Shown here: positions 40,214 through 59,274 of the stretch, piece by piece
Layout of the letters: every line of letters starts with the position of its first letter
How positions within the stretch are numbered: the stretch's first letter is position 1
Origin: Thermonema rossianum DSM 10300
GTDB taxonomy: Bacteria; Bacteroidota; Bacteroidia; Cytophagales; Thermonemataceae
Direction: 5' to 3'
DNA: 64,000 nucleotides
NCBI RefSeq assembly: GCF_000426825.1
Contig: NZ_AUGC01000010.1
Span: 1-64,000, forward strand
Position numbers and translations under genes: made by a program
Notes under the pieces: model-generated
What the model saw: the letters and a program-made list of their open reading frames with translations, nothing else
What the model was told of the DNA's origin: nothing
Database searches by the model: none

Positions 40214-41089
40214 ATGGAAAAGCATAGTGTGAAGAACTTGGCATCGCAAGAGCAAGAATGGACGGAAGTGATAGAGCCGGACAAACCTTGGTGGCAACTG
40301 AATATCGGAGAATTATGGCGTTATAGAGACTTGGTCATCCTGCTGGTACGGCGCGATTTTGTGGCACAGTACAAGCAAACCATTTTAGGTCCTTTGTGGC
40401 ACTTGATTACGCCGCTGCTGAGCACTTTGACTTACACGGTGATTTTCGGCAATATAGCCAAGCTGCCGACGGATGGCATTCCTCCTTTCCTTTTTTATTT
40501 GTGTGGCACTACATTTTGGGGGTATTTTGCCAAATGCCTTACCTCCACCGCAGATACCTTCGTTGCCAATCAAAATATATTTTCAAAAGTTTATTTTCCC
40601 CGTTTGGTCATGCCGCTGTCGCAGGTGATAAGCGCAGGTATTGGCTTTTTGATACAATTGGGCTTGTTTTTGATATTCGCGGCATATGCCTTTTGGCAAG
40701 GGGCACCCATTCACTTGTCTTGGGCACTTTCCCTGCTTCCCTTGTTGGTTTTGTTGATGGTTATATTGGGCTTGGGAATGGGTATCATCATCTCGGCAAT
40801 GACTACCAAGTATCATGATTTGCGTCATGCCGTGAGTTTTGGGGTGCAGCTGCTTATGTATGCTACGCCTGTTATCTACCCTTTATCGATGGTGCCGCCT
40901 CAATGGCAAAAATATTTGCTTTTAAATCCTTTGACTTCGTTGATGGAATTGTTTCGTTTGGCTTTATTGGGTGAGGGTTTCTTTGAGCCTGTTTGGTTTG
41001 CTTACAGCGTGTTTATGTGTGTGGTGGTTTTGCTGGCAGGGGTTGTGAGCTTCAACCGGGTTGAGCGTATATTTGTAGATACAGTATAA
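40214..41089 (+). CDS. wzm: ABC-2 type polysaccharide export permease (Wzm-like)
   Basis: 291 aa with six expected TM helices and a short cytoplasmic N-terminus. Conserved Wzm/TagG features: LLVRRDFVAQYKQTILGPLW before TM1 and NPLTSLMELFRLALLG near the end. With the next gene it forms an ABC exporter that moves finished, lipid-linked O-antigen or capsule chains across the inner membrane. Starts a co-directional cluster; the Wzt gene follows after 9 bases. Confidence 0.92.
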   Translation: MEKHSVKNLASQEQEWTEVIEPDKPWWQLNIGELWRYRDLVILLVRRDFVAQYKQTILGPLWHLITPLLSTLTYTVIFGNIAKLPTDGIPPFLFYLCGTTFWGYFAKCLTSTADTFVANQNIFSKVYFPRLVMPLSQVISAGIGFLIQLGLFLIFAAYAFWQGAPIHLSWALSLLPLLVLLMVILGLGMGIIISAMTTKYHDLRHAVSFGVQLLMYATPVIYPLSMVPPQWQKYLLLNPLTSLMELFRLALLGEGFFEPVWFAYSVFMCVVVLLAGVVSFNRVERIFVDTV

Positions 41090-41098
41090 CAAAGAGGT

Positions 41099-42382
41099 AT
41101 GGCAAAAACAGTAATACATGTAGAGGATGTCTGGAAACGCTATCGTTTGGGGGTGATAGGAGCCACTACCTTGCGGGATGATTTGAAGCGTCTGAGTGCC
41201 AAGTTGCGGGGCAAGGAAGACCCTACCGTACCTTTGGATAAAAGCAATCATTTAAACCATAAAACAAAAGACGCCTATACGTGGGCGCTACAAAATATCA
41301 ATCTGGAAATCAAAGAGGGGGAAGTAATCGGTATCATCGGCAAGAATGGGGCAGGAAAAAGCACACTCCTGAAGATTCTCTCTAAAATCACGCCTCCTAC
41401 ACGCGGGCGTGTGAAAATAAGAGGACGCATAGCTTCTTTGCTGGAGGTTGGCACCGGCATGCATCCGGAGCTGACAGGCATTGAAAATATCTACCTGAAT
41501 GGCGCTATACTGGGCATGAGCCGCCGGGAAATCAAAGAAAAGTTAGATGATATTATTGACTTTGCAGGTATTGCCAAGTATGCCGACACCCCGGTGAAAC
41601 GCTACTCTTCAGGTATGCGTGTGCGGCTGGGCTTTGCCGTAGCTGCTTTCTTGGAGCCCGATATTCTCATTGTAGATGAAGTATTGGCGGTAGGAGATGC
41701 CGAATTTCAAAAACGGGCAGTAGGTAAAATGAAAGAAGTGAGCAGCGGGCAGGGGCGCACAGTGCTGTTTGTGAGTCATAACATGGCGAGTGTACAGCAT
41801 CTGTGTCATTCAGGTGTTGTTTTGGATAAAGGTCGAGTAGTGTATCAGTCACAGAATATAGATGAGGTCATTCAATATTATGCGAAGCAGGTAAGACAAC
41901 AAGTATCGATACCGCTAATGAGCCGGAATGATAGAAGTGGAAGAGGAGAGATTCGGGTCCAAGAGCTATGCATTACAGATACTCAAGGCAATTTAATAGA
42001 TACCATACTTACCGGGCAGGCTGTCAATATAGAGCTTGCTTATAAGGTGTCAAGAGAAGCCCCCCTGCAAGATGTGATGGTAGCCCTCTCTTTACGGCGT
42101 TTCGATGGGACTGTGGTTACTACTCTTTCTACCGAGTATTTGTGCAGCAATTTTCAGCAACTTACAGGTGAAGGTCGCCTGCTTTGTCATATTCCGCGAC
42201 TCCCTCTTACATCAGGAGAGTATATTTTAAATGTAATGATTCGAAGCCAAGGGGAAATTCAAGACTGGCTCGAAGATGCGTGTGTACTGTGTGTAGAAAA
42301 TGGCGATTTTTTCGGAACAGGTCAAGTAGTGCCTGCAAGTCACCCCGGAGTACTCTTTGAACACATGTGGAAACATAAATAA
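41099..42382 (+). CDS. wzt: Polysaccharide export ATPase with a Wzt C-terminal domain
   Basis: 427 aa. ATPase with Walker A (GKNGAGKSTLL, about residue 80), ABC signature (YSSGMRVRLGFAVA), Walker B (ILIVDEVLAVGD) and the switch His (LFVSHNMAS). From about residue 270 a beta-sandwich Wzt_C domain is present (GRGEIRVQELCI, LSLRRFDGTVV, LTSGEYILNVMI), which in other systems reads the non-reducing end of the chain, often a methyl or other cap. That fits the methyltransferase gene that follows. Confidence 0.93.
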   Translation: MAKTVIHVEDVWKRYRLGVIGATTLRDDLKRLSAKLRGKEDPTVPLDKSNHLNHKTKDAYTWALQNINLEIKEGEVIGIIGKNGAGKSTLLKILSKITPPTRGRVKIRGRIASLLEVGTGMHPELTGIENIYLNGAILGMSRREIKEKLDDIIDFAGIAKYADTPVKRYSSGMRVRLGFAVAAFLEPDILIVDEVLAVGDAEFQKRAVGKMKEVSSGQGRTVLFVSHNMASVQHLCHSGVVLDKGRVVYQSQNIDEVIQYYAKQVRQQVSIPLMSRNDRSGRGEIRVQELCITDTQGNLIDTILTGQAVNIELAYKVSREAPLQDVMVALSLRRFDGTVVTTLSTEYLCSNFQQLTGEGRLLCHIPRLPLTSGEYILNVMIRSQGEIQDWLEDACVLCVENGDFFGTGQVVPASHPGVLFEHMWKHK

Positions 42383-42390
42383 CTTAGAAA

Positions 42391-43167
42391 ATGACTTTTT
42401 TGAAAAAGGTTATAAAGAAAATACTTCATGGTTTAGGATACGATATTAGGCGCTTGCCGACTCACTCAAAAGCAAAAAAACAACCTATAGCCATGGCACA
42501 GGGTATACCGGTTTATTCTGCTATTGAGCATAATACCCGGCAAAGGACCAACGAGTATTACTCCAATGAAGAAGCTGTAAGGCAGTACCTATCCCCTGAC
42601 CGGTTGCAGTTCTATAAAGAAGTGATCTCTCTTGTGAGGGAGAAAGTAAGTGAGTTGACTGCCCGAAAAGCACAACAGAGTGTACAAATTGGAGATGTAG
42701 GTTGCGGACCGGGAGATTTGCTTGCATATTTGACTGATAGCTTAGAGCCAGCTGGGGCTGGGTATGCCATGACTGGTTTGGACTTTTCAGAAGCGGCTAT
42801 TCGCGTTGCCTCCCAACGCTTTCCCCATATTAGTTTTCATGTGTTTGACATCTACCAAGACTTTGAGCAATATACTTCTTCTTTTGACCTTCTTTTTTGT
42901 ACAGAAGTTTTGGAACATTTATTATACCCTGCCAAAGCACTTAGTCATTTGCTTTCTATGACAAAAGAGATGTTGGTGCTTACAGTACCTGATGGGCGGA
43001 AGGATACATTTGCAGGGCACATTAATTTTTGGAGCCCTGAAAGCTGGGAAGTATTTGTCCGGGAAGGTACCTTGAAAGAGTATCCCGCTGCAAAGATTCA
43101 AATAGGTTACTTGGAAAAGAACAATATTAATTACGCTATTATTGAATTGAATGACAATGAAAGGTAA
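42391..43167 (+). CDS. Class I SAM-dependent methyltransferase
   Basis: 258 aa. SAM-binding motif I is VQIGDVGCGPGDLLAYL, motif II MTGLDFSEAAIRVA, and the post-I region FDLLFCTEVLEHLLYP. It probably methylates a sugar or caps the polysaccharide; its place behind a Wzt with a C-terminal binding domain supports chain-end capping, but the target is an inference. Overlaps the next gene by 17 bases. Confidence 0.85.
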   Translation: MTFLKKVIKKILHGLGYDIRRLPTHSKAKKQPIAMAQGIPVYSAIEHNTRQRTNEYYSNEEAVRQYLSPDRLQFYKEVISLVREKVSELTARKAQQSVQIGDVGCGPGDLLAYLTDSLEPAGAGYAMTGLDFSEAAIRVASQRFPHISFHVFDIYQDFEQYTSSFDLLFCTEVLEHLLYPAKALSHLLSMTKEMLVLTVPDGRKDTFAGHINFWSPESWEVFVREGTLKEYPAAKIQIGYLEKNNINYAIIELNDNER

Positions 43168-44200
43168 TAGATTGAAATTTGCTATTATAGGTTGCGGGCG
43201 GATAGCGCAAAGGCATGCTTTCCATATAAGTAATAGAGGCGACCTGGTGGCAGTGTGTGATATAGAACTTCACAAAGCAGAGCAGCTGGCCAAGGAATAT
43301 GGTGCAACATTTTATGCTGATGCACAGACAATGCTTGCCCGTGAATCGATTGATGTGGTAGCTGTTTGCTCGCCTAATGGGCTGCATGCCCAGCATACTA
43401 TCCTGGCACTTCGTGCTGGCTGTCATGTCGTATGCGAAAAGCCTATGGCAACAAGCGTGTTGGATTGTCATCAAATGATCAATGAAGCAGAGAAGGCAAA
43501 TAAGCGCCTTTTTATTGTCAAGCAAAATAGGTTTAACCCACCGGTTGCAGAGGTGAAAAAACTACTTGATGCAGGTGTATTGGGTAAAGTGCTGAGTGTG
43601 CAGCTTTCATGCTTCTGGAATAGAAATGAAGAATATTATAACAGCTCTCCATGGCGAGGCACCAAGGCTTTAGATGGTGGTACTCTTTATACACAGTTTA
43701 GTCACTTTATTGATCTTCTCTATTGGATGGTAGGCGATGTGAAGAGGGTCGCTGCGGTGGGTAGAAACGCAGCTCATCAAGGAGTTATTGAGTTTGAAGA
43801 TTGTGGCGCGGTAGTGTTGGAGTTTTATAATGGAGCTATTGGCACTATCAACTACACGGTCAATAGTTACCGGCAAAATATGGAAGGCTCTCTCACTCTA
43901 TTCTGTGAAAAAGGAACTGTGAAAATAGGAGGGCAGTATTTGAATGAATTAGAGTATCAATGCATAGAAAACTATCAAATTTCAAACTTGCCGCCCGGCA
44001 ACCCTCCTAACAACTATGGCAAGTATTTGGGGTCTATGTCTAATCACGACAAAGTGTATGATAATGTAATAGAGGTGCTCAACAACCAAGGAGTTATTGC
44101 TACTAATGGCCTTGAGGGGCTGAAAACTGTTGAAATTATAGACAAGATTTACACACAAATGCGTTCCTCTCATGAAGACAGTCATATTTCTTGGTTCTAA
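43151..44200 (+). CDS. Gfo/Idh/MocA family oxidoreductase
   Basis: 349 aa. N-terminal NAD(P)-binding fold (FAIIGCGRIAQRHAFHI), EKPMATSVLDCHQMI, and the C-terminal domain with VKQNRFNPPV and DGGTLYTQFSHFIDLLYWM (His probably catalytic). The pattern resembles WbpB/WlbA-type sugar-nucleotide 3-dehydrogenases, which supply a ketone for an aminotransferase. An aminotransferase two genes downstream fits this. It overlaps the formyltransferase gene by 29 bases. Confidence 0.8.
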   Translation: MTMKGNRLKFAIIGCGRIAQRHAFHISNRGDLVAVCDIELHKAEQLAKEYGATFYADAQTMLARESIDVVAVCSPNGLHAQHTILALRAGCHVVCEKPMATSVLDCHQMINEAEKANKRLFIVKQNRFNPPVAEVKKLLDAGVLGKVLSVQLSCFWNRNEEYYNSSPWRGTKALDGGTLYTQFSHFIDLLYWMVGDVKRVAAVGRNAAHQGVIEFEDCGAVVLEFYNGAIGTINYTVNSYRQNMEGSLTLFCEKGTVKIGGQYLNELEYQCIENYQISNLPPGNPPNNYGKYLGSMSNHDKVYDNVIEVLNNQGVIATNGLEGLKTVEIIDKIYTQMRSSHEDSHISWF

Positions 44201-44921
44201 GCCCATTGGCTACGAGTGCCTTCAACATCTCTTTTCCCGGCAGGATTCGCTCGGTATAAAAGTGACTGCTGTTTTTACAAACGACAATACCCGTTTTGAT
44301 AAAAATAAAAGTGTCAGAGACTTGGCAACATCTTTTGGCGTGCCCGTATACGAAGATATTGCTGCTCTTGAAACGATGGCGCCCGTAGATGTTTTAATAT
44401 CGGTGCAGTATCATCAAATCTTGAAGAAGAAACACATTCAAAAGGCCAAGCAGCTTGCTGTCAATCTTCATATGGCGCCTTTACCTGAATATCGGGGGTG
44501 TAATCAATTTTCGTTTGCCATATTGGATGGAGCAAAAGAGTTTGGAACGACACTGCATGTGATGAATGAAGATATTGACGGAGGGGATATCTTGTTTGAA
44601 CGGCGCTTCCCCATTCCTGCTGATGTGTTTGTAAAAGAACTTTATCAGAAGACATTTGAGGAGTCGCTTATTTTGTTTCAAGAACATATAGAAGATATCA
44701 TCAGGGGAGAGTATCAGCCTATTGCACAAAGTGACAGAATCCCTACTCATGGAACATCTATTCACTACAGGAATGAAGTAGAACAGATTAAATGTATAAA
44801 TTGGAGGTGGCCCAAAGAAAAAATTGAGCGTCACATTAGAGCTACCTCTATGCCGGGCTTCCCTCCTCCTTACACTTACATAGCAGGAAAAAAAATAGAG
44901 TTTCATTTAAAGGAAGATTAG
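44172..44921 (+). CDS. Formyltransferase, probable sugar N-formyltransferase
   Basis: 249 aa. It has the formyltetrahydrofolate-dependent fold with the catalytic Asn, His and Asp in [18 protein letters not shown] (about 98-100) and [12 protein letters not shown] (about 137). It is shorter than methionyl-tRNA formyltransferase (about 310 aa), lacks its C-terminal tRNA-binding domain, and lies between an oxidoreductase and an aminotransferase, so a sugar-nucleotide amine is the likely acceptor. The exact sugar cannot be named. Confidence 0.8.
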
Positions 44922-44925
44922 TTCT

Positions 44926-46050
44926 ATGAATGTTTCTTTTGTTGATTTGCGGGCTCAATATCTTTCCATAAAAGAAGAGATTGATGCAGCTATCTGGCAA
45001 GTTCTCGACTCAGCCTCTTTTATTGGTGGAGAGTGGGTGGCTAAATTTGAGAGAGCATTTGCACAATATATAGGCAGAAGATTTTGCGTTTCGTGTGGCA
45101 ATGGCACAGATGCCATTGAAGTTGCGCTAAAAGCCTTTGGTATAGGACCCGGCGACGAAGTGATCGTTCCTGCTTATACATGGATATCTACTGCAGAGGC
45201 AGTAAGTAATGTGGGCGCTGTCCCTGTTTTTGTAGATGTAGAAGAAGATTATTATTGTATTGACCCTCAACTTATAGAGGGTAAAATTACCTCGAAGACT
45301 AAGGCAATTATCCCGGTTCATTTTTATGGGCAGGCAGCAAACATGCCGGCTATTATGCAAATAGCTCAGAAACATCAACTCATTGTTATAGAGGACTGTG
45401 CACAGGCTCATGGAGCAAGTATTGAAGGAAAAAAGGCTGGGAATTGGGGCCATGCCGCTTGCTTTAGCTTTTATCCCGGAAAAAATTTGGGAGCATATGG
45501 TGATGCCGGTGCAATACTTATAGATGATGAGCGCATTGCAGAGACCATACGCAGACTTTGTAATCATGGACAGCTGGTAAAACATGAGCATCTCGTTGAG
45601 GGGCGTAACAGCCGCCTTGACACCATTCAGGCAGCTGTCCTTTCTGTCAAACTAAAATACCTTGAATTGTGGACAGAACAGCGCATTGCCAATGCCCGCC
45701 TATATACTCAATTACTGCAGGAGCAGCTTGGAGGAAGCATTCTGCCACCCAAGGTGCGCGGTAATACGAGACATGTGTTTCACTTGTATGTGGTGCAATG
45801 TGAACAAAGAGACTGGATAAAGCAGTATTTGGCTAAACATTCCATTCAAACTGCTATTCACTATCCAAGAGCGCTGCCATTTCTTGAGTGTTATGCTTAT
45901 ATGGGGCATTGCCCGGAGGATTTCCCCAAAAGCCATGCTATGCAAAAGCGAATCTTATCTCTTCCTATGTACGCGGAGCTGACAGGCGAGCAAATTTATT
46001 ATGTGGTCAATTGCATGAAAGATGCAATCCTTGAATCAAAACAATGTTAA
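44926..46050 (+). CDS. DegT/DnrJ/EryC1/StrS family sugar aminotransferase
   Basis: 374 aa PLP enzyme. Opens [18 protein letters not shown], has the cofactor-binding [28 protein letters not shown] and the Schiff-base Lys in [15 protein letters not shown] (about residue 186). It transfers an amino group to a keto-sugar nucleotide; paired with the dehydrogenase it likely acts at C3 and feeds the formyltransferase. The end overlaps the Met-start region of the next gene. Confidence 0.9.
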
Positions 46051-46060
46051 TCAACCTGCA

Positions 46061-47236
46061 ATGGGTAAAGTTAAAGTATTTAAAGGCAGCCCCATGTATT
46101 CACAGGGGGCAACGAGTATATATCAGCGTAGCCCGTCTTTGAGAAGTGCCTCGTATGAGCAGCAATACCAGGCTCTCATGGGCGCTTTGTTTGGGTTTTC
46201 TGATTTTTGGAAAAAGAACTTGGAAAGCTTAGGGGGGTATGAAGTAGAGGAAGTGCTTACTAATTGTAAGGACCTCCAGCTAAAATGGGCAGAAGAGCAT
46301 CATGTCAAACTGCAATCTGATGATTGGCAAAGAGAGGTCCTTTTGCACCAAATTGCGCATTATCAACCTGATATTCTTTTCGCTCATGACTATAATGTTT
46401 TTGACAATCATTTTCTTAAAAACATAAAACAACAGGTCCCCTCTATTAAGATGGTTATTGGGTGGGACGGAATACTATTACATGACCCGGCACGCTTCCA
46501 AGAGTTTGATTTAATGCTTTCGCCACTGCGTTTAACGGCTGACTTTTATAAAAGTGCCGGTAAGCGAGCGTATTATTTCCCTTTTGGCTTCGAAACTTCC
46601 ATCATGGACTCTTTGAAACAAGTCAAGGAAAAGCGTTATGAGGTGAGTTTCGTGGGGTCTATTTTCTCAAAGGCTCATAGAGAACGTATGGAACTGCTGG
46701 TTTTTTTAAGTAAGCATATAAAATTAAGCTTATGGGGGGCACACTTCCCTAAAAAAAACGAGAAAAAAGAGTGGTTCCCATGGGCTTACCCTCAAAGGCA
46801 ACGTTTGCTTAACCGGCAGTGGCAAGAATGGTGGGCTATTTGGAAACTTGCCCCCATCAATCAAGGGGGGGTTTTTGGTATAGACATGTATCAGGTATTG
46901 GCTGAGTCTATGATTACCTTAAATAAACATATAGATGTTGTTCCTAACGCAGAAGCGGCAAATATGAGATTATATGAAGCTACCGGAGTTGGGACTTGCT
47001 TGGTGACTGACTATAAAGAAAACTTAAATGACATATTTACAATTGATGAAGAAGTAGTAGCTTACAAAAGCAAAGAAGAATGTTTAGATAAAGTGAAGTA
47101 TCTTCTTAAACATCCAAAAGAATGTGCCAGAATAGCTAAAGCCGGACAAAAAAAAGTAATGGAAAACTATTCTTTTCGTAAACGAGTCTTGGACTTTGTC
47201 CCTTATTTAGAACAACTTTTGGAAGAGAAAATTTAA
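46061..47236 (+). CDS. CgeB-like glycosyltransferase
   Basis: About 391 aa. The GT-B-like C-terminal half shows YEVSFVGSIFSKAHRERMEL, then the nucleotide-binding AANMRLYEATGVGTCLVTDY and DEEVVAYKSKEECLDKVKYL, typical of CgeB/GT1-like surface-glycan enzymes. Start: ATG 46061 (MGKVKVFKG) follows the aminotransferase stop; an in-frame ATG at 46022 would overlap it by 29 bases. Base composition is more AT-rich than flanking core genes. Confidence 0.75.
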   Translation: MGKVKVFKGSPMYSQGATSIYQRSPSLRSASYEQQYQALMGALFGFSDFWKKNLESLGGYEVEEVLTNCKDLQLKWAEEHHVKLQSDDWQREVLLHQIAHYQPDILFAHDYNVFDNHFLKNIKQQVPSIKMVIGWDGILLHDPARFQEFDLMLSPLRLTADFYKSAGKRAYYFPFGFETSIMDSLKQVKEKRYEVSFVGSIFSKAHRERMELLVFLSKHIKLSLWGAHFPKKNEKKEWFPWAYPQRQRLLNRQWQEWWAIWKLAPINQGGVFGIDMYQVLAESMITLNKHIDVVPNAEAANMRLYEATGVGTCLVTDYKENLNDIFTIDEEVVAYKSKEECLDKVKYLLKHPKECARIAKAGQKKVMENYSFRKRVLDFVPYLEQLLEEKI

Positions 47237-50175: not shown

Positions 50176-50201
50176 ACATAGCGTGAAGCTTGTTATTTAA
50201 G

Positions 50202-50242
50202 CTTTGGGGCAATGTGGCAACATATTGTCCCAAAGTCATTTT
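50202..50242 (+). terminator. Terminator hairpin after the DUF3575 gene
   Basis: CTTTGGGGCAAT (50202-50213) pairs with ATTGTCCCAAAG (50224-50235), one G-T pair in the stem, and TCATTTTTATG follows. The rest of 50176-50475 holds nothing else I can support. Confidence 0.65.
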
Positions 50243-50475
50243 TATGAAGCAAAGTAAAATACCGTGCAAATACTTTTTTAGTAGATTGAAAGCCGTGCGG
50301 TAGTATATCTTTGTGTGTGTAATGGTCTCTTAATCTAATTTCAACTTTACTCATTTTTTCACTCTTCCCATAATTTAGCTTTGGGAAAGTATTCCGGGGC
50401 ACTGCTAATAAAAAATGGTAGCATTGGCATAATGCCCCCATTTTTGGCAAAATTTCATCCAACGTTGCCATCTCT

Positions 50476-51282
50476 TCATACTGCTATCATGCCGGTTGCC
50501 GGTCCGGAACACATCTTTAAACCTTCTGCTACTTGGACTTTATCTTTGGGTTTGACGCGTTTTTGAACATTTCTCTGCAAATGAATTGAGCATAATTGTT
50601 GGGATGAAGGAAATTTTTTTCCATATGGCATCCTCTGTTGAAGAACACGACTTTTTAGCTCGTCAAAAACATCCTCCCATGCCTGAGCACTTTCAGTAGG
50701 GGAATTGACAGTGCCCAATACCTGCCGTGAGCGATCTTTTCGAACACCTAATATCGTATAATAGGCCTCTTTGTTTACGTGATCCGCTTTTCGGGTGTAT
50801 ATAAAAGTTGCGTCAATCAGAATGATGGGGTAATATGATTTCAATGGCCGGCTTGACCACGCCTGAACCTCCGACCGGGCATACTCAAACAACCGGCTGA
50901 TTTGACTTGCTCTATTGTTTTCCATAAATGTCTCCAAATATCTCCCCAACCTGTTCGGTAGTGAGCCCCGCACCACACAAGTTAAATTCCGGTTTGCGGG
51001 CTTCTTCTTCCCGGTTACGCAACAATGCCAAAAGTATAGGATAGAAATTCCCCCGGCGACTGCGCAGCACTCTTAGTTCCGGTAGTTTTCCTTGTCCAAA
51101 GGTCTTGCGATAGCGGTGTCCATTGCTCATATCATCTTCTTTTTTTGTTATGGAGTTCACCTTCAGCCCGCATGCTCGCTTCAAAGCTGATTTTTTAAAC
51201 CTCTTGGAAATCATTCTTTTTTTAAAGCAGGTTCTCCTAAGGTTTTCGCAACTTTCTCTTGTGTAAAATTTAGATTTTTCAT
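50476..51282 (-). pseudogene. IS256-family (mutator type) transposase remnant
   Basis: Three reading-frame pieces can be joined on the minus strand. The ATG at 51282 starts MKNLNFTQEKVAKTLGEPAL and stops early at an A7 run; the frame then shifts to 50912-51214 (ELRVLRSRRGNFYPILLALL, TTEQVGEIFGDIYG), then to 50476-50976 (PIILIDATFIYTRKADHVNK with the first catalytic Asp, ESAQAWEDVFDELKSRVL, QLCSIHLQRNVQKRV). The second catalytic Asp region is deleted and the C-terminal third is missing, so it is inactive. It marks the left edge of the AT-rich island; clear terminal repeats were not found. Confidence 0.8.
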
Positions 51283-51491: not shown

Positions 51492-52799
51492 ATGCATATC
51501 TTAAAAATCATACATGGTTATCCGCCTTATTATAATGCGGGTTCAGAAGTTTACAGCCAATCTATATGCAATGAACTGTCTAAGAAACATAAGGTTACCG
51601 TAGTGACACGCGAAGAAAACCCTTATCTACCTGATTTCCATGTTCGCTATGAAAAAAGCCATGAAAACCTTCAGTTCTTTTATGTGAACATGGCACAAGG
51701 TAAAGATGGCTTCAGGCATAAAGAATTAGATGCTGCTTTTGCTCAAATACTCCTTAAGCAAAAACCTGATATTGCTCATGTAGGACATCTTAATCATCTT
51801 TCTACGGGCATCATTGATGTACTGAATGTCCATGGAATACCCATTGTTTTTACCCTGCACGATTTTTGGCTGATGTGTCCAAGAGGACAATTCCTTCAAA
51901 GAAACTCTTGTGGTACCAAAGTTTGGGAGTTATGCGATAAACAAGAAGATAAAAAATGTGCAACCATTTGTTACAGTCCTTATTTCACAGGTATTCCCGA
52001 ATTAGAAGAACAAGACATTGCATATTGGACAAACTGGATAAATGCACGAATGAAAGAAACTAAAGCTATTATCTCAAAAACAGACCTTTTTATTGCGCCT
52101 TCAAAATATTTACTTAACCGCTTCGTAAATGAATTTCATGTTCCCAAAGATAAAATCATCTATTTAGATTATGGTTTCCCTTTACACTATCTTACTCCCA
52201 CTATCCACAAAAAATCTAATGAAGTTTTTACTTTTGGTTACATTGGCACACATATCCCTGCCAAAGGTGTCAACTTGGTTATTGAAGCATTTAATCAATT
52301 ACAATTGCCTGCAAAACTCTTAATCTGGGGCTATAAAGATGAACAAAGTTCCAATGCTTTAAGGCAACAAGCCGCTACCAACCCTAATATTGAATTTAAA
52401 GGAAAGTACATCAACCAAAACCTGGCCGATGAAGTATTTTCCCAAATAGATTGTATCGTCGTTCCAAGTATATGGACAGAGAACTCTCCTTTGGTGATTC
52501 ATGAAGCCCAAGCATGCCGTATTCCTGTAATTACTGCGAATGTAGGAGGAATGGCTGAATATGTGCAAGATGGTGTCAATGGCTTACTCTTTGAACATCG
52601 TAATGTCAAATCCTTATTACAAAAAATGCAGTATGCTGTCCAGAATCCTAATATCATGAAACAGCTCGGAAAACGAGGATATCTGTATTCTGAAGACGGA
52701 CAAGTTCCTGATATCCAAAGTCATTGTAGAGAATTAGAAAAAATTTACGAAAGCCTAATAGAAAAAAAACTATGCAAAAGTTGTCTCTCTGGCGAATAA
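51492..52799 (+). CDS. GT4 family glycosyltransferase
   Basis: 435 aa, GT-B fold. N-terminal IIHGYPPYYNAGSEVYSQSI, FTLHDFWLMCPRGQFL, and the C-terminal donor-binding part FTFGYIGTHIPAKGVNLVIEA and VVPSIWTENSPLVIHEAQAC with the EX7E-type Glu. Cys residues cluster near 140-165 (SCGTKVWELC, KKCATICYSP), a feature of some surface-glycan GT4 enzymes. Strongly AT-rich. Its end overlaps the radical SAM gene by 28 bases, so the two are coupled. Confidence 0.88.
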   Translation: MHILKIIHGYPPYYNAGSEVYSQSICNELSKKHKVTVVTREENPYLPDFHVRYEKSHENLQFFYVNMAQGKDGFRHKELDAAFAQILLKQKPDIAHVGHLNHLSTGIIDVLNVHGIPIVFTLHDFWLMCPRGQFLQRNSCGTKVWELCDKQEDKKCATICYSPYFTGIPELEEQDIAYWTNWINARMKETKAIISKTDLFIAPSKYLLNRFVNEFHVPKDKIIYLDYGFPLHYLTPTIHKKSNEVFTFGYIGTHIPAKGVNLVIEAFNQLQLPAKLLIWGYKDEQSSNALRQQAATNPNIEFKGKYINQNLADEVFSQIDCIVVPSIWTENSPLVIHEAQACRIPVITANVGGMAEYVQDGVNGLLFEHRNVKSLLQKMQYAVQNPNIMKQLGKRGYLYSEDGQVPDIQSHCRELEKIYESLIEKKLCKSCLSGE

Positions 52800-53800
52800 C
52801 ATTAGATACCAATCCTGAGGATTGTAACTTTCATTGTATCATGTGCGAAGAGCACAGTCCTTTTTCGGATTATATTCGTAAAAAACTTAACGGAAAGCGA
52901 AGGCGCATGCCTAAAGAGTGGTTAGAGCCAATCTTTAAGCAGGCGCAAAAACTGGGTGTAAAAGAGATTATCCCTTCCACGATGGGCGAACCCTTAATTT
53001 ACAGACATTTTGACACTATTGTAGAGTTTTGTTACAAGTATAACATAAAAATGAATCTTACTACCAATGGCAGTTTTCCTTCAGTGAATGGAAGAACTGT
53101 AGAAGAATGGGCAAAATGGATTGTTCCTATCACTACGGATGTAAAATTTAGTTGGAACGGTGCTAAAAAGGAAACAGACGAAAAGGTCATGATCGGCAAA
53201 AACTTTGAAAAAAGCTTACAAAATGTAAAAACTTTCATCAATATTCGTGATGAACACTATCAAAAAACAGGACATTACTGCCGTGTAACTTTTCAACTCA
53301 CTTTTATGCGAAACAACATGCACGAATTGCCGGATATTGTGCGTTTAGCTGCAGAATTAGGTGTAGACAGAGTGAAAGGACATCATCTATGGGCACATTT
53401 TGAAGAAATTAAACACTTATCTGTTAAAGTAAGCCCCGAAAGCATAGTACAATGGAATCAATATGTAGAAGAGGCGTATCAGGTACGAGAAAAATTCTTA
53501 AGACCCAACGGACAAAAAGTACTGTTGGAACAAATATTTCCCTTACAACCTGAAGAGCAACATGAAGTTCCAGAACATTATGAATGCCCATTTCTAAATA
53601 AAGAACTTTGGATTTCTGCTGAAGGAGTTATTTCCCCTTGCTGTGCACCGGATGAACAGCGTAAGACGTTAGGATATTTTGGCAATATCCAGGATACCAC
53701 TCTTGAAGAAGTATTACAGAGTGAATCCTATCAAAACCTTGTAAAAAACTATAAAAAAATGGATTTATGTAAAACTTGTAATATGCGAAAACCTAAATAG
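52772..53800 (+). CDS. Radical SAM protein with a SPASM domain
   Basis: 342 aa. The [4Fe-4S] motif CX3CX2C is at residues 18-25 (DCNFHCIMCEEHSP). The SAM-binding GEPLIYRHFD is present. The C-terminal SPASM Cys set is CPFLNKELWISAEG, SPCCAPDEQ and CKTCNMRKP. SPASM enzymes modify peptides or, in some surface-glycan clusters, sugars or polyols. No precursor peptide gene is seen beside it; the overlapping GT4 gene points to a glycan-linked job, by inference. Confidence 0.88.
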   Translation: MQKLSLWRITLDTNPEDCNFHCIMCEEHSPFSDYIRKKLNGKRRRMPKEWLEPIFKQAQKLGVKEIIPSTMGEPLIYRHFDTIVEFCYKYNIKMNLTTNGSFPSVNGRTVEEWAKWIVPITTDVKFSWNGAKKETDEKVMIGKNFEKSLQNVKTFINIRDEHYQKTGHYCRVTFQLTFMRNNMHELPDIVRLAAELGVDRVKGHHLWAHFEEIKHLSVKVSPESIVQWNQYVEEAYQVREKFLRPNGQKVLLEQIFPLQPEEQHEVPEHYECPFLNKELWISAEGVISPCCAPDEQRKTLGYFGNIQDTTLEEVLQSESYQNLVKNYKKMDLCKTCNMRKPK

Positions 53801-53823
53801 AACAAATTAAGAGATGAATTACA

Positions 53824-54487
53824 ATGAATACTAGAAAAGTCACATTTGTTTCTGGTTTATACTTTTACAGAAGAAATGGTAAAGTTAGTTATCCAGATAA
53901 AGTTATTCAAGAGATTGATAAATCATTGCAATTAAATTACTGGTATAGACAAGAACTTATTTTTTATGCAGACACGAAGGAAATGGCAAAAGTTTTATCC
54001 GATAAAGGATTATACGTACATAAAGTTTTTGATGACGCACCGAATGAAATAAAGTTTAATGCTGCTCACAAAATGAAGCATTGGATAATTTTGAATGCCG
54101 TAAAGGAATTTAATGATGTAGTTTGGTTAGATTGGGATACATATTCATTAAATTTATAAATAAATGTTTTAGTTCTGAACACCCAAAATTTACATACATT
54201 AAAAATATTGGGCAACCATTAACTGTTCCGTTTATTACTTAAATAAATGCTACGTACCACTAATGGAAAAGAGTTTTAAGTCAGTTGTATCTGAACCTAA
54301 TGATGAACTCTTATGGAAGTCTGTTTTACCAGAAAATATATGCTCCTTAAGTGAATATTGGTTAGATGATTTTGTGATAAATATCTGTGATGATGCAGAT
54401 TTTCAGAACATAACAAGTAATACATATTTTTTGCATCTAAAAAACTTTAACATGCTAAGCCTTATTAATAAATTTCAAATAACATGA
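53824..54487 (+). pseudogene. Frameshifted gene with a DWD motif, possible glycosyltransferase
   Basis: The first frame (111 aa, 53824-54159) has an N-terminal TFVSGLYFYRRNG and ends at VVWLDWDTYSLNL. A different frame continues with INKCFSSEHPKFTYIKNIG up to about 54240, and a third carries YVPLMEKSFKSVV and ends LHLKNFNMLSLINKFQIT. Joined, they give about 220 residues of one protein with acidic DWD near the middle, like the DxD of small GT-A enzymes. Two one-base changes near 54155 and 54235 break it, either true decay or sequence error. The stop overlaps the next start (ATGA). Confidence 0.7.
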
Positions 54488-55929
54488 TTGATATGAGGCA
54501 GCTTGAAACAATTGAAAGATTGAGAGCCATATTTTCTAGTCATAAAGGAGTTCAAGTAGCTTTACTTTACGGTTCATTTGGAAGAAACGAGGCAAATCCA
54601 AATTCAGATATTGATATTCAAATTTTGGTAGATGGGAGTTTTGAAGCTGAAAATTTAGTTGATATTCTGAAAAATGAATTCAAAGATAAAATTCGTTATA
54701 TCACACATGTGATTTTGAAAAATAAAATTGTAGCTTATTTTAACCATCAACCTAAAATTGAAATTCAAATTTGTAATGATATTGACGAAATCAATAGAAA
54801 CTATCTAGGATCAGAAATTACAAACATTGAACAAACTATCCTTTTTGCAAATAACTATTGGGAGGAAAAAATCAGGAATTATCTGCACACAATAACTAAA
54901 AATTATAATCTTGAGAAAGAGAAGAAAGGTATATATGATAGAGCATTAGAACTAATAGATAAATTTATTTATGAATTTGAGAATTGTTCAGCGATGCACC
55001 GTAGAAGTGATGCCTATAAGTTTTATTTTTTCTATAATATTGCTTTGCATGTGGCTGTACAACTTAAGCATCTTTCAACAGGAGATATTAAATATAATTT
55101 TTTACCAAAATATTTTGTTGTCAATTCACTAACGGAGCAAGAACGAAATCCTTTTTATGAGTTAAAAGGGACTTTATATTTACCTGAAGCAAATGTCCAA
55201 AAGAGAAAATTATTAGAGTTTTTTTATTCGTCCATTAAAACGCTTGTAAACAAAGAAAAACAAGATGAAGTAGAACAACTTCTAGAATGGATTTATGAAC
55301 GTGATTTCTTTTGGAATTTTAGAGATATAAGCACTTATAATCCAAAAATCAAAAGTAGAGTTATTTATCGAAGTGCAACATTGAGTTTATTTCAGAATGA
55401 AAGTCGCTTTCAAGAATTACTCAATAAAAAGAATATTAAAACTATTATTGACTTACGAGCAGACAAAGAAATTGCCGAGTCCCCCTATAATGATAACACT
55501 CTTTCGAAAATTAATTATGTTATGGCACAATTAGACCCTTGGAACCAACCTGAATGGTTTAAGGAAAAGTATAATTATGGTACAAATGAAGAAATTGCTT
55601 ATCGTTTCTTCATAATCGGATGTAAGGATAAAATTAAGAAAGCAATTGAAGCAATTATTAATGCAGAAGATGCGGTTGTTGTTCATTGTTTTGCAGGAAA
55701 AGATAGGACTGGTATTTTTGTCTCTTTACTTCATTTGCTCGTAGATACACCTATGGAAATAATATATACCGATTATTTGGCAAGTGAAATTGATGTTAAA
55801 CCTTATCGTTTAGAAATGGTGTTGAATATCATCAATGAACATGGAGGAATTGTACCCTATTTGATGGACTGCGGACTCCATGAAACACAAATTGAACAAC
55901 TGAAATATAAGCTATTAAATGGAAACTAA
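54484..55929 (+). CDS. Fusion of a minimal nucleotidyltransferase and a tyrosine phosphatase-like domain
   Basis: 481 aa. The N-terminal pol-beta-like nucleotidyltransferase has LLYGSFGRNEANPNSDIDIQ (Gly30-Ser31, Asp42 and Asp44) and a third acidic residue at about Glu93. A helical middle region of about 180 aa follows. From about residue 278 comes a Y_phosphatase3-like domain: NFRDISTYNPKIKSRVIYRS, IIDLRADKE, and the catalytic P-loop HCFAGKDRTG (His401-Cys402 to Arg408) with TDYLASEIDVKPYR. Both active sites look intact. It overlaps the broken gene before it and the methyltransferase after it. No known pathway with this fusion is recognised. Confidence 0.85.
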   Translation: MIDMRQLETIERLRAIFSSHKGVQVALLYGSFGRNEANPNSDIDIQILVDGSFEAENLVDILKNEFKDKIRYITHVILKNKIVAYFNHQPKIEIQICNDIDEINRNYLGSEITNIEQTILFANNYWEEKIRNYLHTITKNYNLEKEKKGIYDRALELIDKFIYEFENCSAMHRRSDAYKFYFFYNIALHVAVQLKHLSTGDIKYNFLPKYFVVNSLTEQERNPFYELKGTLYLPEANVQKRKLLEFFYSSIKTLVNKEKQDEVEQLLEWIYERDFFWNFRDISTYNPKIKSRVIYRSATLSLFQNESRFQELLNKKNIKTIIDLRADKEIAESPYNDNTLSKINYVMAQLDPWNQPEWFKEKYNYGTNEEIAYRFFIIGCKDKIKKAIEAIINAEDAVVVHCFAGKDRTGIFVSLLHLLVDTPMEIIYTDYLASEIDVKPYRLEMVLNIINEHGGIVPYLMDCGLHETQIEQLKYKLLNGN

Positions 55930-56881
55930 GATTAATCTTAAATCATTCTTTACAGAACATTGGAAATATATGGCAGTTAGTACAGCTTGTAAACTTGATT
56001 TGTTTGACCATTTGCAAGAATATAAAACTGCAAAACAATTAGCAACAGAACACTCTTGGAATGAAAATGCATTGCTTTTATTATTGAATTCTTTACATCA
56101 CATCGGTTTTTTAGATAAAAAAGAAGATTTATTCAAAATAAATGATTTATCGGAATTGCTTACAGAAAAAAATCCTGAAAGTTTAAAATATGCCTGTATG
56201 CTCTGGAGTGCAGAGCACTTAACTGCTTGGCAAAACTTGGAATTCTCTATCAAAACAGGAAAAAGTTCCTTTGAAAAATTATATCAAAAGCCCTTTTTTG
56301 ATTACCTCAATCAATACCCAGAAAAATTAGATACTTATCACAAAGCCATGTATGAATACGCCAGAGATGACTACAAGAATTTACCCGATATAATAGATTT
56401 TAGTCAGTACCAATCAATAATGGATGTTGGCGGAGGATATGGCGCCCTTTTACAAGGTATTAAAACAAAAAATCCTCGTATTGAATGTATTTTGTTTGAT
56501 TTGCCCCAAGTCGTACAGAACGTAACTATTTCTAATATCAAGAAAATTGGGGGAAGTTTCTTCGAAAAAATTCCTATTCAAGCAGATGCCATTGTTTTAT
56601 CAAGAGTTTTACATGATTGGAACGACGAAAAAGCCAAACTTATCTTAAAAAACTGCTGCGAAGCCTTGTACAGTAAAGGTGTTCTGTATGTTATTGAAAA
56701 TTGTTCTGATAAAATCAAAATTGATTTGTCTTTGCTTTCATTGAATATGTTAGCTATATGTGAAAGTTATGAAAGAACCGCTCAACAATATGTTGAACTT
56801 TGCGAAAGTACAGGCTTTCAATTAGATAACGAAATGCCATTAAACGAGTTACAAACTATTTTAATTTTCAAAAAAATATGA
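55919..56881 (+). CDS. O-methyltransferase of the acetylserotonin/hydroxyneurosporene type
   Basis: 320 aa. An N-terminal winged-helix dimerisation domain (STACKLDLFDHLQEYKTAKQ) precedes a SAM-binding domain with IMDVGGGYGALLQGI (about residue 167) and SRVLHDWNDEKAKLILKN (about 229, catalytic His-Asp region). Such enzymes methylate small-molecule hydroxyls. It begins 11 bases inside the fusion gene and ends in ATGA with the WG gene, so it belongs to one operon with both. Substrate unknown. Confidence 0.85.
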   Translation: METKINLKSFFTEHWKYMAVSTACKLDLFDHLQEYKTAKQLATEHSWNENALLLLLNSLHHIGFLDKKEDLFKINDLSELLTEKNPESLKYACMLWSAEHLTAWQNLEFSIKTGKSSFEKLYQKPFFDYLNQYPEKLDTYHKAMYEYARDDYKNLPDIIDFSQYQSIMDVGGGYGALLQGIKTKNPRIECILFDLPQVVQNVTISNIKKIGGSFFEKIPIQADAIVLSRVLHDWNDEKAKLILKNCCEALYSKGVLYVIENCSDKIKIDLSLLSLNMLAICESYERTAQQYVELCESTGFQLDNEMPLNELQTILIFKKI

Positions 56882-57579
56882 ATTGGAAAGAAATTAAAGT
56901 ATCAGAAGATAATACTCATTTTCTTTATGAAGGGAAGCCGCTTTTTAATAAAAAGTTTCTGAACGTATTAAAATTCCACGAACCGGGATTAGCACCTGTC
57001 AAAGACGAAACAGGTTGGTATCATATTCTAATCAACGGGACTCCATTGTATCCCGAGCGGTATGACAGAGCATTTGGTTTTTATTGCAACCGTGCTACAG
57101 TCGTAAAAGCCAATGAATGGTTTCATATCAACGAGAAAGGACAACGCGTTTATACACAAAATTATGCGTGGGCAGGTAATTTTCAAGAAAACCTTTGCAC
57201 CGTCAGAAATCATCAAAATTTTTATTTTCACATTGACTTAGAGGGGAATAGAGTTTATTCAGAAAATTATTTATATGCAGGGGATTTCAAAGATGGCTAT
57301 GCTTGCGTAAAATGCTCCGATGGGCTTTTTAGGCATATTAACACACAAGGAAAATTTTTGAATGAAAAAGGTTTCTTAGATTTAGGCGTATTTCATAAAG
57401 GATTTGCTATTGCAAAGGATAAAAAAGGTTGGTTTCATATCAATAAACAAGGGATGGAATTATATTCCCAAAGGTATTTAATGATAGAGCCTTTTTATAA
57501 CGGCTATGCATTAGTGACCACTTTTGACAATCAAAAAATCATCATAGATGAAAATGGGAAAAAAATATTAAACATTTAA
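56878..57579 (+). CDS. WG-repeat protein
   Basis: 233 aa with about five or six WG-type beta repeats of 30-40 residues: GWYHILINGTPLYPERYDRA, EWFHINEKGQRVYTQNYAWA, FYFHIDLEGNRVYSENYLYA, GLFRHINTQGKFL, GWFHINKQGMELYSQRYLMI. No signal peptide, so it is likely cytoplasmic and acts as a binding or scaffold partner. Starts in the last bases of the methyltransferase gene (ATGA) and ends this operon. Confidence 0.85.
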   Translation: MNWKEIKVSEDNTHFLYEGKPLFNKKFLNVLKFHEPGLAPVKDETGWYHILINGTPLYPERYDRAFGFYCNRATVVKANEWFHINEKGQRVYTQNYAWAGNFQENLCTVRNHQNFYFHIDLEGNRVYSENYLYAGDFKDGYACVKCSDGLFRHINTQGKFLNEKGFLDLGVFHKGFAIAKDKKGWFHINKQGMELYSQRYLMIEPFYNGYALVTTFDNQKIIIDENGKKILNI

Positions 57580-57714
57580 TATCAATAATAGGATTTGGTG
57601 AGCTATTAATATGTAGGATTTACCGGATAAAAATATTCTCTTAAAAAGTAATTAGTTTGATAGTCTTTTCATCTTTAATAGAAGTTTATTTAACACCATT
57701 AATTTTATAATATT

Positions 57715-58032
57715 ATGAACACAAAATCTAATTTACTAATTGCATTTTACTTTGCAATTCTAACTATTTCAACATTAATTATCAGACGTTTAGAGTTGAT
57801 TGACAGTCGGTTTATTGATATATTTTTCCTGTTTTTAATTTCTATCCCATTTAGAAAAGGAAACAGAAATCTTTACATCATTTATTCAGTAATATTTTGT
57901 ACATCAATTGCATATTTCAAAAATTACGATGCTAATAAAAATTTAAATTTAGCAATAATTATTTTTAATGGAATTTTATCATTTGGAAATATTTACCTTG
58001 GAATAAAAAAAACTACACCTAACAAGGTATAA
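57715..58032 (+). CDS. Small membrane protein, possible gene-cassette ORF
   Basis: 105 aa with about four hydrophobic segments (for example LLIAFYFAILTISTLIIR and FLFLISIPF). No family recognised. AT-rich like the island. Its stop codon lies inside the left end of an attC-like inverted repeat (58017-58147), the arrangement seen at the end of integron gene cassettes. The 135 bases before it hold no clear promoter match. Confidence 0.6.
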   Translation: MNTKSNLLIAFYFAILTISTLIIRRLELIDSRFIDIFFLFLISIPFRKGNRNLYIIYSVIFCTSIAYFKNYDANKNLNLAIIIFNGILSFGNIYLGIKKTTPNKV

Positions 58033-58382: not shown

Positions 58383-59274
58383 AAGTTGTTTAAAGTTTCC
58401 TGAGTAAAATTACGGTAAAAGCCAATAACCACAAGGACTTCCAAGTTTCATCTTTGGTTTCAAAACGGACTAAAATCGCCTTAAAAGCGTCTAACCAAGC
58501 GTTGATTCTTTCAATGACAAATCTGTATTTGTAAAGCAAGCGGTCAAAAATATACTTTCCTTGTTTACTTTTTGATTTTCTGCCATTCTCTACAATATTG
58601 GCGATGATTTCACGACTACTGCAAAGCTTGCGAAATTCCCTTGTGTCAAAACCTGCATCCGCATTCAGAAACAACCCTTGTGTCGGAACGCACGATTTTT
58701 CTAACTTTTGTAGCATATCGTTGAAATGCTCATTTAACTTATATGCATCATGATGGTTTCCTGCCATTGGCCGGCTGACAGCCAACCGAATGCCTTGACT
58801 GTCGGTAAGCAATAACATATTGGTTGTTTTACTTTTTTTACGCCCTTGATAGCCTACCGATTTGCCTCCTCTTTTAGCCGGTGTATAGGTGCCGTACAAG
58901 ATAATTCCAAGCTGCCTGCATACTTGTGTACCGGCTTATTCCATACCTTTTCCCAACTGCCGTCCATGCTCCATTTACGATAATGGTAATACACGCTTTG
59001 CCAACCGTATTTCACTTTGAAAAAATGTTTTACCGGCAATTCCCGCCATTGACAACCGGTCTTTAAACGATACAGTATCGCACTGACAATTTGCCAAGCT
59101 TGAACTTTTGCATTATTCTTTCTGCCGAACGTTCAATGCGGGCAAATCTCTTTTTTATTATATCTTTGTTTAATACCATATCTTTTTGAGCGAATACTAT
59201 TTATTTCTTTCTTCTTTACAAAACAAAAAGAAAGTTGGCATTCGCTCTTTTTAATTTTTTAACTTTAAACAACC
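58382..59274 (-). mobile_element. IS5-type insertion sequence, decayed
   Basis: The ends carry inverted repeats: AGTTGTTTAAAGTT near 58384 and AACTTTAAACAACC at 59261-59274. A TTA is repeated on both sides (58379-58381 and 59275-59277), which fits the three-base target duplication of IS5-group elements. Length about 893 bp, with a transposase reading frame covering most of it (58390-59179). It inserted into a small lipoprotein ORF. Confidence 0.75.
58390..59179 (-). pseudogene. IS5-family transposase, frameshifted
   Basis: Pieces join on the minus strand as: MVLNKDIIKKR near the start (ATG at 59179), QAWQIVSAILYRLKTGCQWR, KYGWQSVYYHYRKWSMDGSW with EKVW, KYAGSLELSC, a frameshift near 58880, then TYTPAKRGGKSVGYQGRKKS, GLFLNADAGFDTREF and the DDE-family end ERINAWLDAFKAILVRFETK. 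At least three frameshifts or stops break it, so it is not active unless supplied with another transposase. Confidence 0.75.

Follow-up and report, generated by a model that had tools for sequence, protein, structure and literature searches.

A mobile gene cassette with a GT4, radical SAM/SPASM and WG-repeat core in Thermonema rossianum, other Bacteroidota and insect symbionts

Gene content of the locus

The window studied here is a 64,000-nucleotide stretch of Thermonema rossianum DSM 10300 (assembly GCF_000426825.1, contig NZ_AUGC01000010.1, positions 1 to 64,000), and its subject is a gene cassette on the forward strand. The original prediction, made from the sequence alone, described a three-gene operon in which an AT-rich run of overlapping genes encodes a fusion of a nucleotidyltransferase (NTase) and a phosphatase of the Y_phosphatase3 type (PTP), a winged-helix O-methyltransferase (OMT) and a WG-repeat protein (WG). 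The overlaps are indeed present, 11 bases between the fusion and OMT genes and ATGA between the OMT and WG genes; Pfam agrees with the domain calls, and the motifs GSFGR, DIDIQ and HCFAGKDRTG lie where they had been placed. The G+C content of this run is 31.0% versus 45.8% for the whole window. It belongs to a real recurring unit, but the unit is larger than was described: the operon begins upstream of 54484 and includes the genes of a GT4 family glycosyltransferase (GT4) and a radical SAM/SPASM enzyme (rSAM), with a G+C content of 36.6% between 51492 and 53800 (Table 1). These are two separate genes in the window, the start of the second overlapping the end of the first. Since most homologues of the fusion begin at a methionine matching M4 of open reading frame (ORF) 1, the fusion probably starts at 54493.

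Table 1. Cassette features, with positions in the window
Feature	Position	Strand	Description
GT4 family glycosyltransferase, core gene 1	51492..52799	+	435 aa; Pfam Glycos_transf_1 2.9e-30, Glyco_transf_4 6e-16
Radical SAM/SPASM enzyme, core gene 2	52772..53800	+	342 aa; Pfam Radical_SAM 5e-11, SPASM 1.2e-11
Degraded stretch	53824..54480	+	111-aa ORF ending near WLDWDT (DxD-like), then broken frames
NTase-PTP fusion	54484..55929	+	481 aa; likely start 54493
Winged-helix O-methyltransferase, optional module	55919..56881	+	320 aa; Pfam Methyltransf_2 1.5e-40, Dimerisation 3e-7
WG-repeat beta-propeller, core gene 3	56878..57579	+	233 aa; Pfam WG_beta_rep 9e-11

The degraded stretch between the rSAM and fusion genes is very AT-rich (G+C 28%). 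Its ORF matched none of the ORFs of records L003-L024 and no Pfam family above the cut-off, and no counterpart was seen in other cassettes; it is possibly what remains of a further, lost module of the cassette.

Recurrence of the core

Records carrying the cassette were collected into a comparison set of 26. The rSAM and WG genes are present in 26/26 of these and GT4 in 25/26, the missing one being a cut contig. In 25/26 records GT4, 46-66% identical to that of the window, adjoins rSAM or is fused to it, and in 18 of the 25 records having both they form a single protein; in L018, which is cut by the contig end, they look fused too. The invariant core therefore consists of GT4, rSAM and WG, of which the original prediction, centred on the fusion, had listed WG only; the fusion is accessory and the OMT optional.

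Contigs searched with the fusion yielded 13 loci, each also with WG and rSAM, and with GT4 wherever the contig reaches. Recurrence of the genes singly, which had been named as what would speak against a unit, was mostly not seen: of 15 non-self fusion homologues (14 about full-length, one of the PTP half), 14 lie inside a cassette. The exception is a solo NTase-PTP homologue with 33% identity in genome G008 (L033 8681-10099). A histidine-phosphatase cassette is found elsewhere on that same contig. Seven weaker, partial matches of the fusion (L005-L011, E 4e-7 to 9e-4), each covering one domain, had no cassette gene within the surrounding 1.5 kb.

A second, independent route used a WG profile against 148 relatives and against 395 genomes of the phylum. 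It reached genomes G008, G013, G044, G250, G473, G477 and G520, and GT4, rSAM and WG occurred together in 7/7. Among the 148 relatives, the seven genomes with a strong WG match (>200 bits, own included) are exactly the seven with a full-length rSAM homologue; an eighth rSAM match, in G462, covers the last 104 residues only. In G001, the one congener examined, neither the fusion nor WG nor rSAM had a match, as would fit a cassette gained by transfer. The 395 evenly sampled Bacteroidota genomes contained one NTase-PTP (own), two strong WG matches (own and G250) and three weak ones, hence the cassette is rare and patchy. Two of the cassette records come from named strains, Algibacter pectinivorans DSM 25730 (L021) and Lacinutrix mariniflava AKS432 (L024).

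The genes also diverge together. Distances correlate between genes with a Mantel r of 0.66-0.92 for ten gene pairs of 7-25 records, and 0-2 of 2000 permutations reached the observed value. Residues C18, C22, C25, C272, C290, C291 and C336 of rSAM are invariant in 26/26 records. WG has seven invariant histidines (H34, H49, H83, H118, H153, H173 and H187) and an invariant C107, as well as invariant tyrosine and tryptophan residues, and is conserved along its length, with a mean column identity of 69% in 15 sequences. It scores 42 bits against WG_beta_rep (cut-off 25.6), and its AlphaFold2 model, with a mean predicted local distance difference test (pLDDT) score of 95.8, is a compact propeller that aligns to known propeller chains with Z 8.3-11.6, which places it among the WG propellers. 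By sequence it had no relatives in the PDB at E up to 1.

The fusion and the other exchangeable modules

In the fusion, Pfam places NTP_transf_2 and Polbeta at residues 10-96 (E 4e-9 and 5e-11) and Y_phosphatase3 at residues 276-442 (E 9e-34; 118 bits, gathering cut-off 22.2), so the latter half belongs to that family. The structure prediction that had been proposed as a check models each domain as an entire fold, and the active-site motifs of both are conserved (AlphaFold2, mean pLDDT 88.8). Residues 4-273 align by VIA-align with the lincosamide-modifying enzyme LinB (3jyy; Z 20.2, root mean square deviation 3.6, 260 aligned, 14% identity) and residues 276-479 with the Mycobacterium tuberculosis phosphatase PtpB (1ywf; Z 21.3, root mean square deviation 3.0, 190 aligned); Foldseek gave the same relatives. 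The N-terminal half shares with LinB its fold and the GSxxR and DxD motifs, and it has the pol-beta core plus helical C-terminal domain of the LinB/ANT type. The PTP half has the fold and the P-loop HCxAGKDRTG of PtpB and other Y_phosphatase3 proteins. Unlike either relative, the two are joined in one chain and encoded in an operon, one that is predicted to be biosynthetic. The P-loop is present in 17/17 PTP-bearing records; among the NTase-bearing copies DxD is found in 15/15 and GSxxR in 14/15, L020 lacking the arginine.

LinB adenylylates a small drug, a lincosamide. By analogy with this fold, the NTase half most likely acts on a small molecule. Against the type VII toxin-antitoxin family MntA it scores 29.1 bits, below the NCBIfam cut-off of 60, and Pfam detects no HEPN partner among the seven ORFs scanned from 51492 to 58032.

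The position of the fusion is a slot with several occupants. In the 26 records it holds NTase-PTP in 15, a count biased by the fact that 12 were found with that protein as query, PTP alone in two (L024, L083) and a histidine phosphatase in three (L031, L067 and, by Pfam, L068). The eight genomes found through WG, own included, have NTase-PTP in three, a histidine phosphatase in three and neither in two. The earlier idea of a modifier plus eraser in one protein does not agree with this distribution, given that the NTase half can be missing and the whole protein replaced. In a tree of rSAM and WG, several deeper nodes of which are weakly supported, the window groups with L031 and L067 (support 0.90), and as these closest core relatives carry a histidine phosphatase, the occupant of the slot has been exchanged within the window's own lineage. 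From the swap between NTase-PTP and histidine phosphatase, dephosphorylation would be the step that the variants share.

The methyltransferases vary as well. A separate OMT is found in 9/26 records, and all nine keep the motif D[VI]GG[GS]xG, the window copy showing DVGGGYG and LHDWND. In 4/26 records (L070, L079, L080, L114) WG is instead fused to a methyltransferase-like domain that lacks the DVGGGxG motif for S-adenosylmethionine (L070 and L114 by eye). A PhyH gene is likewise found in 4/26.

An AAA+ gene stands beside the cassette in 14/26 records; tblastn detected 12 of these, and L014 and L020 have cut copies. In 13 records it runs divergently, and in L069 it lies upstream in line with the cassette. 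It varies strongly and was not found in the other 12 records, some of which are cut contigs. At L021 (3119-4939) and L066 (5642-7462) the divergent gene encodes a protein of 606 aa that resembles sigma-54 activators and has an extended N-terminal region. That of L066 has a sub-threshold RtcR match (E 0.011), a hint at RNA or oligonucleotide sensing.

Relatives in symbionts

The original prediction had named no system with this set of genes, yet WG and rSAM searches of phage records match Wolbachia phage WO: part of its Undecim cluster shares homology with the core (PMC9203015, PMC4701759). This cluster comprises the eleven genes WD0611-WD0621; copies also occur in Cardinium and on plasmids of Rickettsia, with transfer among the three genera (PMC9203015); it is described as highly expressed in Wolbachia, transferred between endosymbionts, duplicated in an obligate strain and of unknown function (PMC9203015, PMC12801941). 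A WG-OMT fusion with possible syntenic homologues in four other taxa was already noted in 2015 (PMC4701759).

What Undecim has in common with the window is GT4 and rSAM/SPASM, fused in the phage (49% and 52% identity to the two window proteins), adjoining WG (51%), nearly full length, and like the cassette it is prophage-borne and laterally transferred. The phage WO gene run reads SDR (short-chain dehydrogenase/reductase), GT4-rSAM, WG with a methyltransferase-like domain, PhyH, an ATP-binding cassette (ABC) exporter (L114:12663-14438, called by eye) and two genes annotated as L-allo-threonine aldolase; together with a transporter and a UDP-glucose dehydrogenase these additions and the eleven-gene extent set Undecim apart from the window, which has separate GT4 and rSAM genes, a separate OMT with intact motif and NTase-PTP. 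Between 51001 and 58100 the window holds homologues of UC3 (as two genes) and UC4 (as WG and separate OMT), the remaining Undecim genes not being among the queries, and it shows no PhyH, serine hydroxymethyltransferase-like (SHMT-like) or SDR match. It is thus not an eleven-gene Undecim cluster, although it has the GT4-rSAM pair and WG as its counterpart does. The methyltransferase half of the WG fusions lacks the glycine-rich motif, so methylation may not be what WD0614 does, contrary to the role assigned to it.

A plasmid search added WG and rSAM on three plasmids of Arsenophonus louse-fly symbionts (CP132902, CP132904, CP132908). In two regions (L079, L080) GT4, rSAM and WG follow the window order with 47-53% identity; CP132904 has rSAM and WG matches. 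They differ from the window in the WG-methyltransferase-like fusion, PhyH, an SHMT-like pyridoxal phosphate enzyme and SDR, and the same plasmid also carries pantothenate genes. L079 and L080 closely resemble each other (rSAM 94%). The GT4 and rSAM frames are open at L079 7618-9961 and L080 7617-9961, yet missing from the distributed gene table. The paper on these symbionts discusses the plasmid pantothenate genes, and the words phytanoyl, methyltransferase, radical SAM and glycosyltransferase do not occur in its main text (PMC10654098). The AGAB aminoglycoside cluster of Rickettsia buchneri was considered as a further relative and set aside, its kanamycin- and gentamicin-like genes looking different in the parts available (PMC8770908, PMC9111745).

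What we describe is a real, mobile and modular cassette, the Bacteroidota variant of a core described mainly within a symbiont phage cluster of unknown function. Part of the synteny has been known since 2015; the phosphatase/NTase branch, the modular slot and the defence-rich context seem new within the literature searched, in which we found nothing linking WG repeats with radical SAM or glycosyltransferase, nor on a defence-island context of the cassette.

Genomic context and mobility

Neighbouring genes were compared with PADLOC models in a pooled scan at 1e-10 of 114 neighbour proteins from 18 loci, with 112 proteins from nine stretches of four genomes as controls. The neighbours matched 278 families versus 12 for the controls; as families overlap, these figures are not gene counts. 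The control matches were mad3, mad8, PDC-M37B (twice), DolB, DpdF, ATPase-Toprim, AriA, Csa3 (twice) and pVip (twice), with no restriction enzyme or methylase model among them.

Twenty of the 114 neighbours, picked by eye, were also scanned singly at 1e-20. This identified a BrxH/DrmD-like helicase (L012), DarG (L013), a C5 methylase (L019), a type I methylase (L023), a type I restriction enzyme (L024), a PglX-like or type II methylase (L031), a type IIG enzyme (L068), a type I methylase and PDC-S05 (L067), and, in L015, type IV restriction, helicase, PDC-S02 and type IIG matches. Defence-type genes were accordingly present at 9/18 loci, or 10/18 when counting L021:1825-3066, which is McrC by Pfam but, like L012:12264-15239, L019:1189-2730, L021:1-1818, L022:13407-16757, L023:1-2139 and L031:2808-4298, had no PADLOC match at 1e-20. 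Relatives of the cassette thus often lie in defence-rich neighbourhoods. At the window PADLOC covered seven ORFs, and its models matched the cassette genes weakly only.

The cassette is mobile: its occurrences are spread over scattered Bacteroidota, prophages and plasmids of insect symbionts. Integrases or recombinases occur at L013, L017 and L019. In the IMG/VR record L083 the cassette is flanked by an endolysin (phrog_315, 1.3e-30) on one side and an integrase (phrog_1, 7e-39) on the other, and in another record, L082, GT4-rSAM and WG lie near a phage single-strand DNA-binding protein. At 1e-5 PHROG had no match for four of the nine L083 proteins scanned, nor had Pfam for two proteins of L082 taken for phage proteins.

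Function of the cassette

GT4, rSAM/SPASM and WG occur and diverge together, while phosphatase, NTase, OMT and PhyH are exchanged around them. We give a slightly better than even chance to the reading that the core enzymes of this mobile cassette act in the cytosol to synthesise a glycosylated small molecule of a single kind; the order of the chemical steps, WG as a binder and the purpose are what we infer. In such a pathway GT4 would attach a sugar to a phosphorylated acceptor, and rSAM/SPASM, adjacent or fused to it, would perform radical chemistry on the resulting glycoside. A phosphatase of either type, or in symbionts possibly a PhyH dioxygenase step, would take the phosphate off; the LinB-like NTase could adenylylate a hydroxyl of the product or an intermediate, so as to mask or activate it; the OMT would cap a hydroxyl, and the WG propeller may bind an intermediate or the product. 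The strongest clue to this chemistry comes from the phosphatase swap, since unrelated phosphatases, and possibly PhyH, in comparable company suggest a phosphorylated intermediate. Restriction-type genes, prophages, symbiont plasmids and the frequent AAA+ neighbour suggest a role in conflict, in which the product would serve against phages or rival bacteria. Genes for SDR and PhyH, and others that are SHMT-like or annotated as aldolases, accompany the core in symbionts, and phage WO adds the ABC exporter called by eye.

Several points weigh against this biosynthetic reading. No exporter is found among the Bacteroidota cassette genes, and the target of the enzymes could be a polymer or a protein. 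In L070, the Arsenophonus plasmids, phage WO, L069 and L082 no PTP or histidine-phosphatase match was found beside the core, consequently the phosphatase step is not universal. The Mantel correlation is also expected under plain co-inheritance, and the cassette is rare, with one fusion and two strong WG matches in 395 genomes, own included. The defence context is an association only: the controls come from four genomes and the loci from 18 records, with overlapping families, the singly scanned neighbours were chosen by eye, and 8/18 loci had no defence-type gene in single scans, having been covered by the pooled scan only, plus one L022 negative.

Both a natural-product pathway and a defence unit, named among the possibilities at the outset, stay open. 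A strict version of the latter, compatible with the biosynthetic reading, which leaves the target open, is an inducible anti-phage defence with viperin-like logic, in which infection would be sensed by an AAA+ regulator and answered by the cassette with an antiviral molecule made inside the cell. We regard this as possible but rather doubtful. The defence-rich and prophage locations, the AAA+ gene in 14/26 records (two with a long N-terminal region, one with the weak RtcR match) and the lack of an exporter gene in Bacteroidota cassettes agree with it, but rSAM is of the SPASM type and matches the viperin model weakly (6e-9), the AAA+ gene is highly variable and was not found in 12/26 records, the phage WO version comes with transporters, and phage protection is predicted from context. 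Equally tentative is a broader form, inducible chemical immunity in Bacteroidota and their prophages, according to which GT4-rSAM and WG would make a glycosylated, radical-derived antimetabolite whose phosphorylation and adenylylation would be set by exchangeable phosphatase and LinB-like modules; Undecim and the Arsenophonus operon would be symbiont relatives making a related compound, exported in the case of phage WO. A defence system of this sort would be of a new chemical kind.

A module modifying cell-surface glycan, exopolysaccharide or lipopolysaccharide, seems unlikely. Such a role was proposed by the phage WO authors for part of the Undecim cluster, which has SDR, a GlmU-like gene and UDP-glucose dehydrogenase (PMC9203015). 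GT4 enzymes are generally common in surface glycan loci, and a Wzm/Wzt-like exporter cluster, recognised by eye, lies at 40214-47236 of the window. The cassette proteins scanned matched no polymerase or flippase family, however, the neighbours vary between loci and lean to restriction-type genes, and the NTase is of the small-molecule type.

We consider it improbable that the cassette matures a protein in the manner of ribosomally synthesised and post-translationally modified peptides (RiPPs), with WG or another protein cross-linked by rSAM/SPASM, glycosylated by GT4 and modified further by NTase, PTP and OMT. SPASM enzymes often act on peptides, and WG is in every cassette with its invariant histidine, cysteine, tyrosine and tryptophan residues; its lengthwise conservation and compact propeller model are nevertheless not what one would look for in a precursor whose core varies, four records have it joined to a methyltransferase-like domain, the NTase is LinB-like, and no precursor peptide is common to the 12 loci within 900 bases upstream of GT4. 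Small ORFs in that interval are weak candidates for RiPP precursors, being split into several unrelated sets: ORFs of about 100 aa lie just upstream of GT4 in L013 (5386-5688), L017 (5375-5701) and L019 (5395-5700), and two other sets in L014/L015/L032/L066 and in L021/L024, that of L024 with a DUF4258 match below the cut-off. It is possible that they are leader or regulator genes.

Finally, that NTase-PTP both attaches and removes a single nucleotide tag, its target being a protein or RNA, in the manner of MntA or GlnD, is very improbable: the NTase core does match MntA antitoxin (6.8e-7, below the cut-off) and MNT chains of the PDB, but 2/17 PTP-bearing records lack the NTase, in three records a histidine phosphatase stands in for the entire protein, the fold across the full N-terminal half is that of LinB, and a cysteine phosphatase is not expected to remove adenosine monophosphate.

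Wolbachia is hard to manipulate genetically. The Undecim core is now tied to compact cassettes in bacteria that can be grown in the laboratory, including the named strains, and with the invariant genes told apart from the interchangeable ones its chemistry becomes directly testable.

Other features of the window and genome

Transposase-like fragments were seen by eye on the minus strand on either side of the cassette (50193-51214 and 58390-58899). The exporter region at 40214-47236 also contains aminotransferase, formyltransferase-like and other sugar genes and by eye is a surface polysaccharide cluster. The genome encodes a second WG protein (L034 6212-7447), by eye an ordinary lipoprotein, which is distantly similar to the cassette WG.

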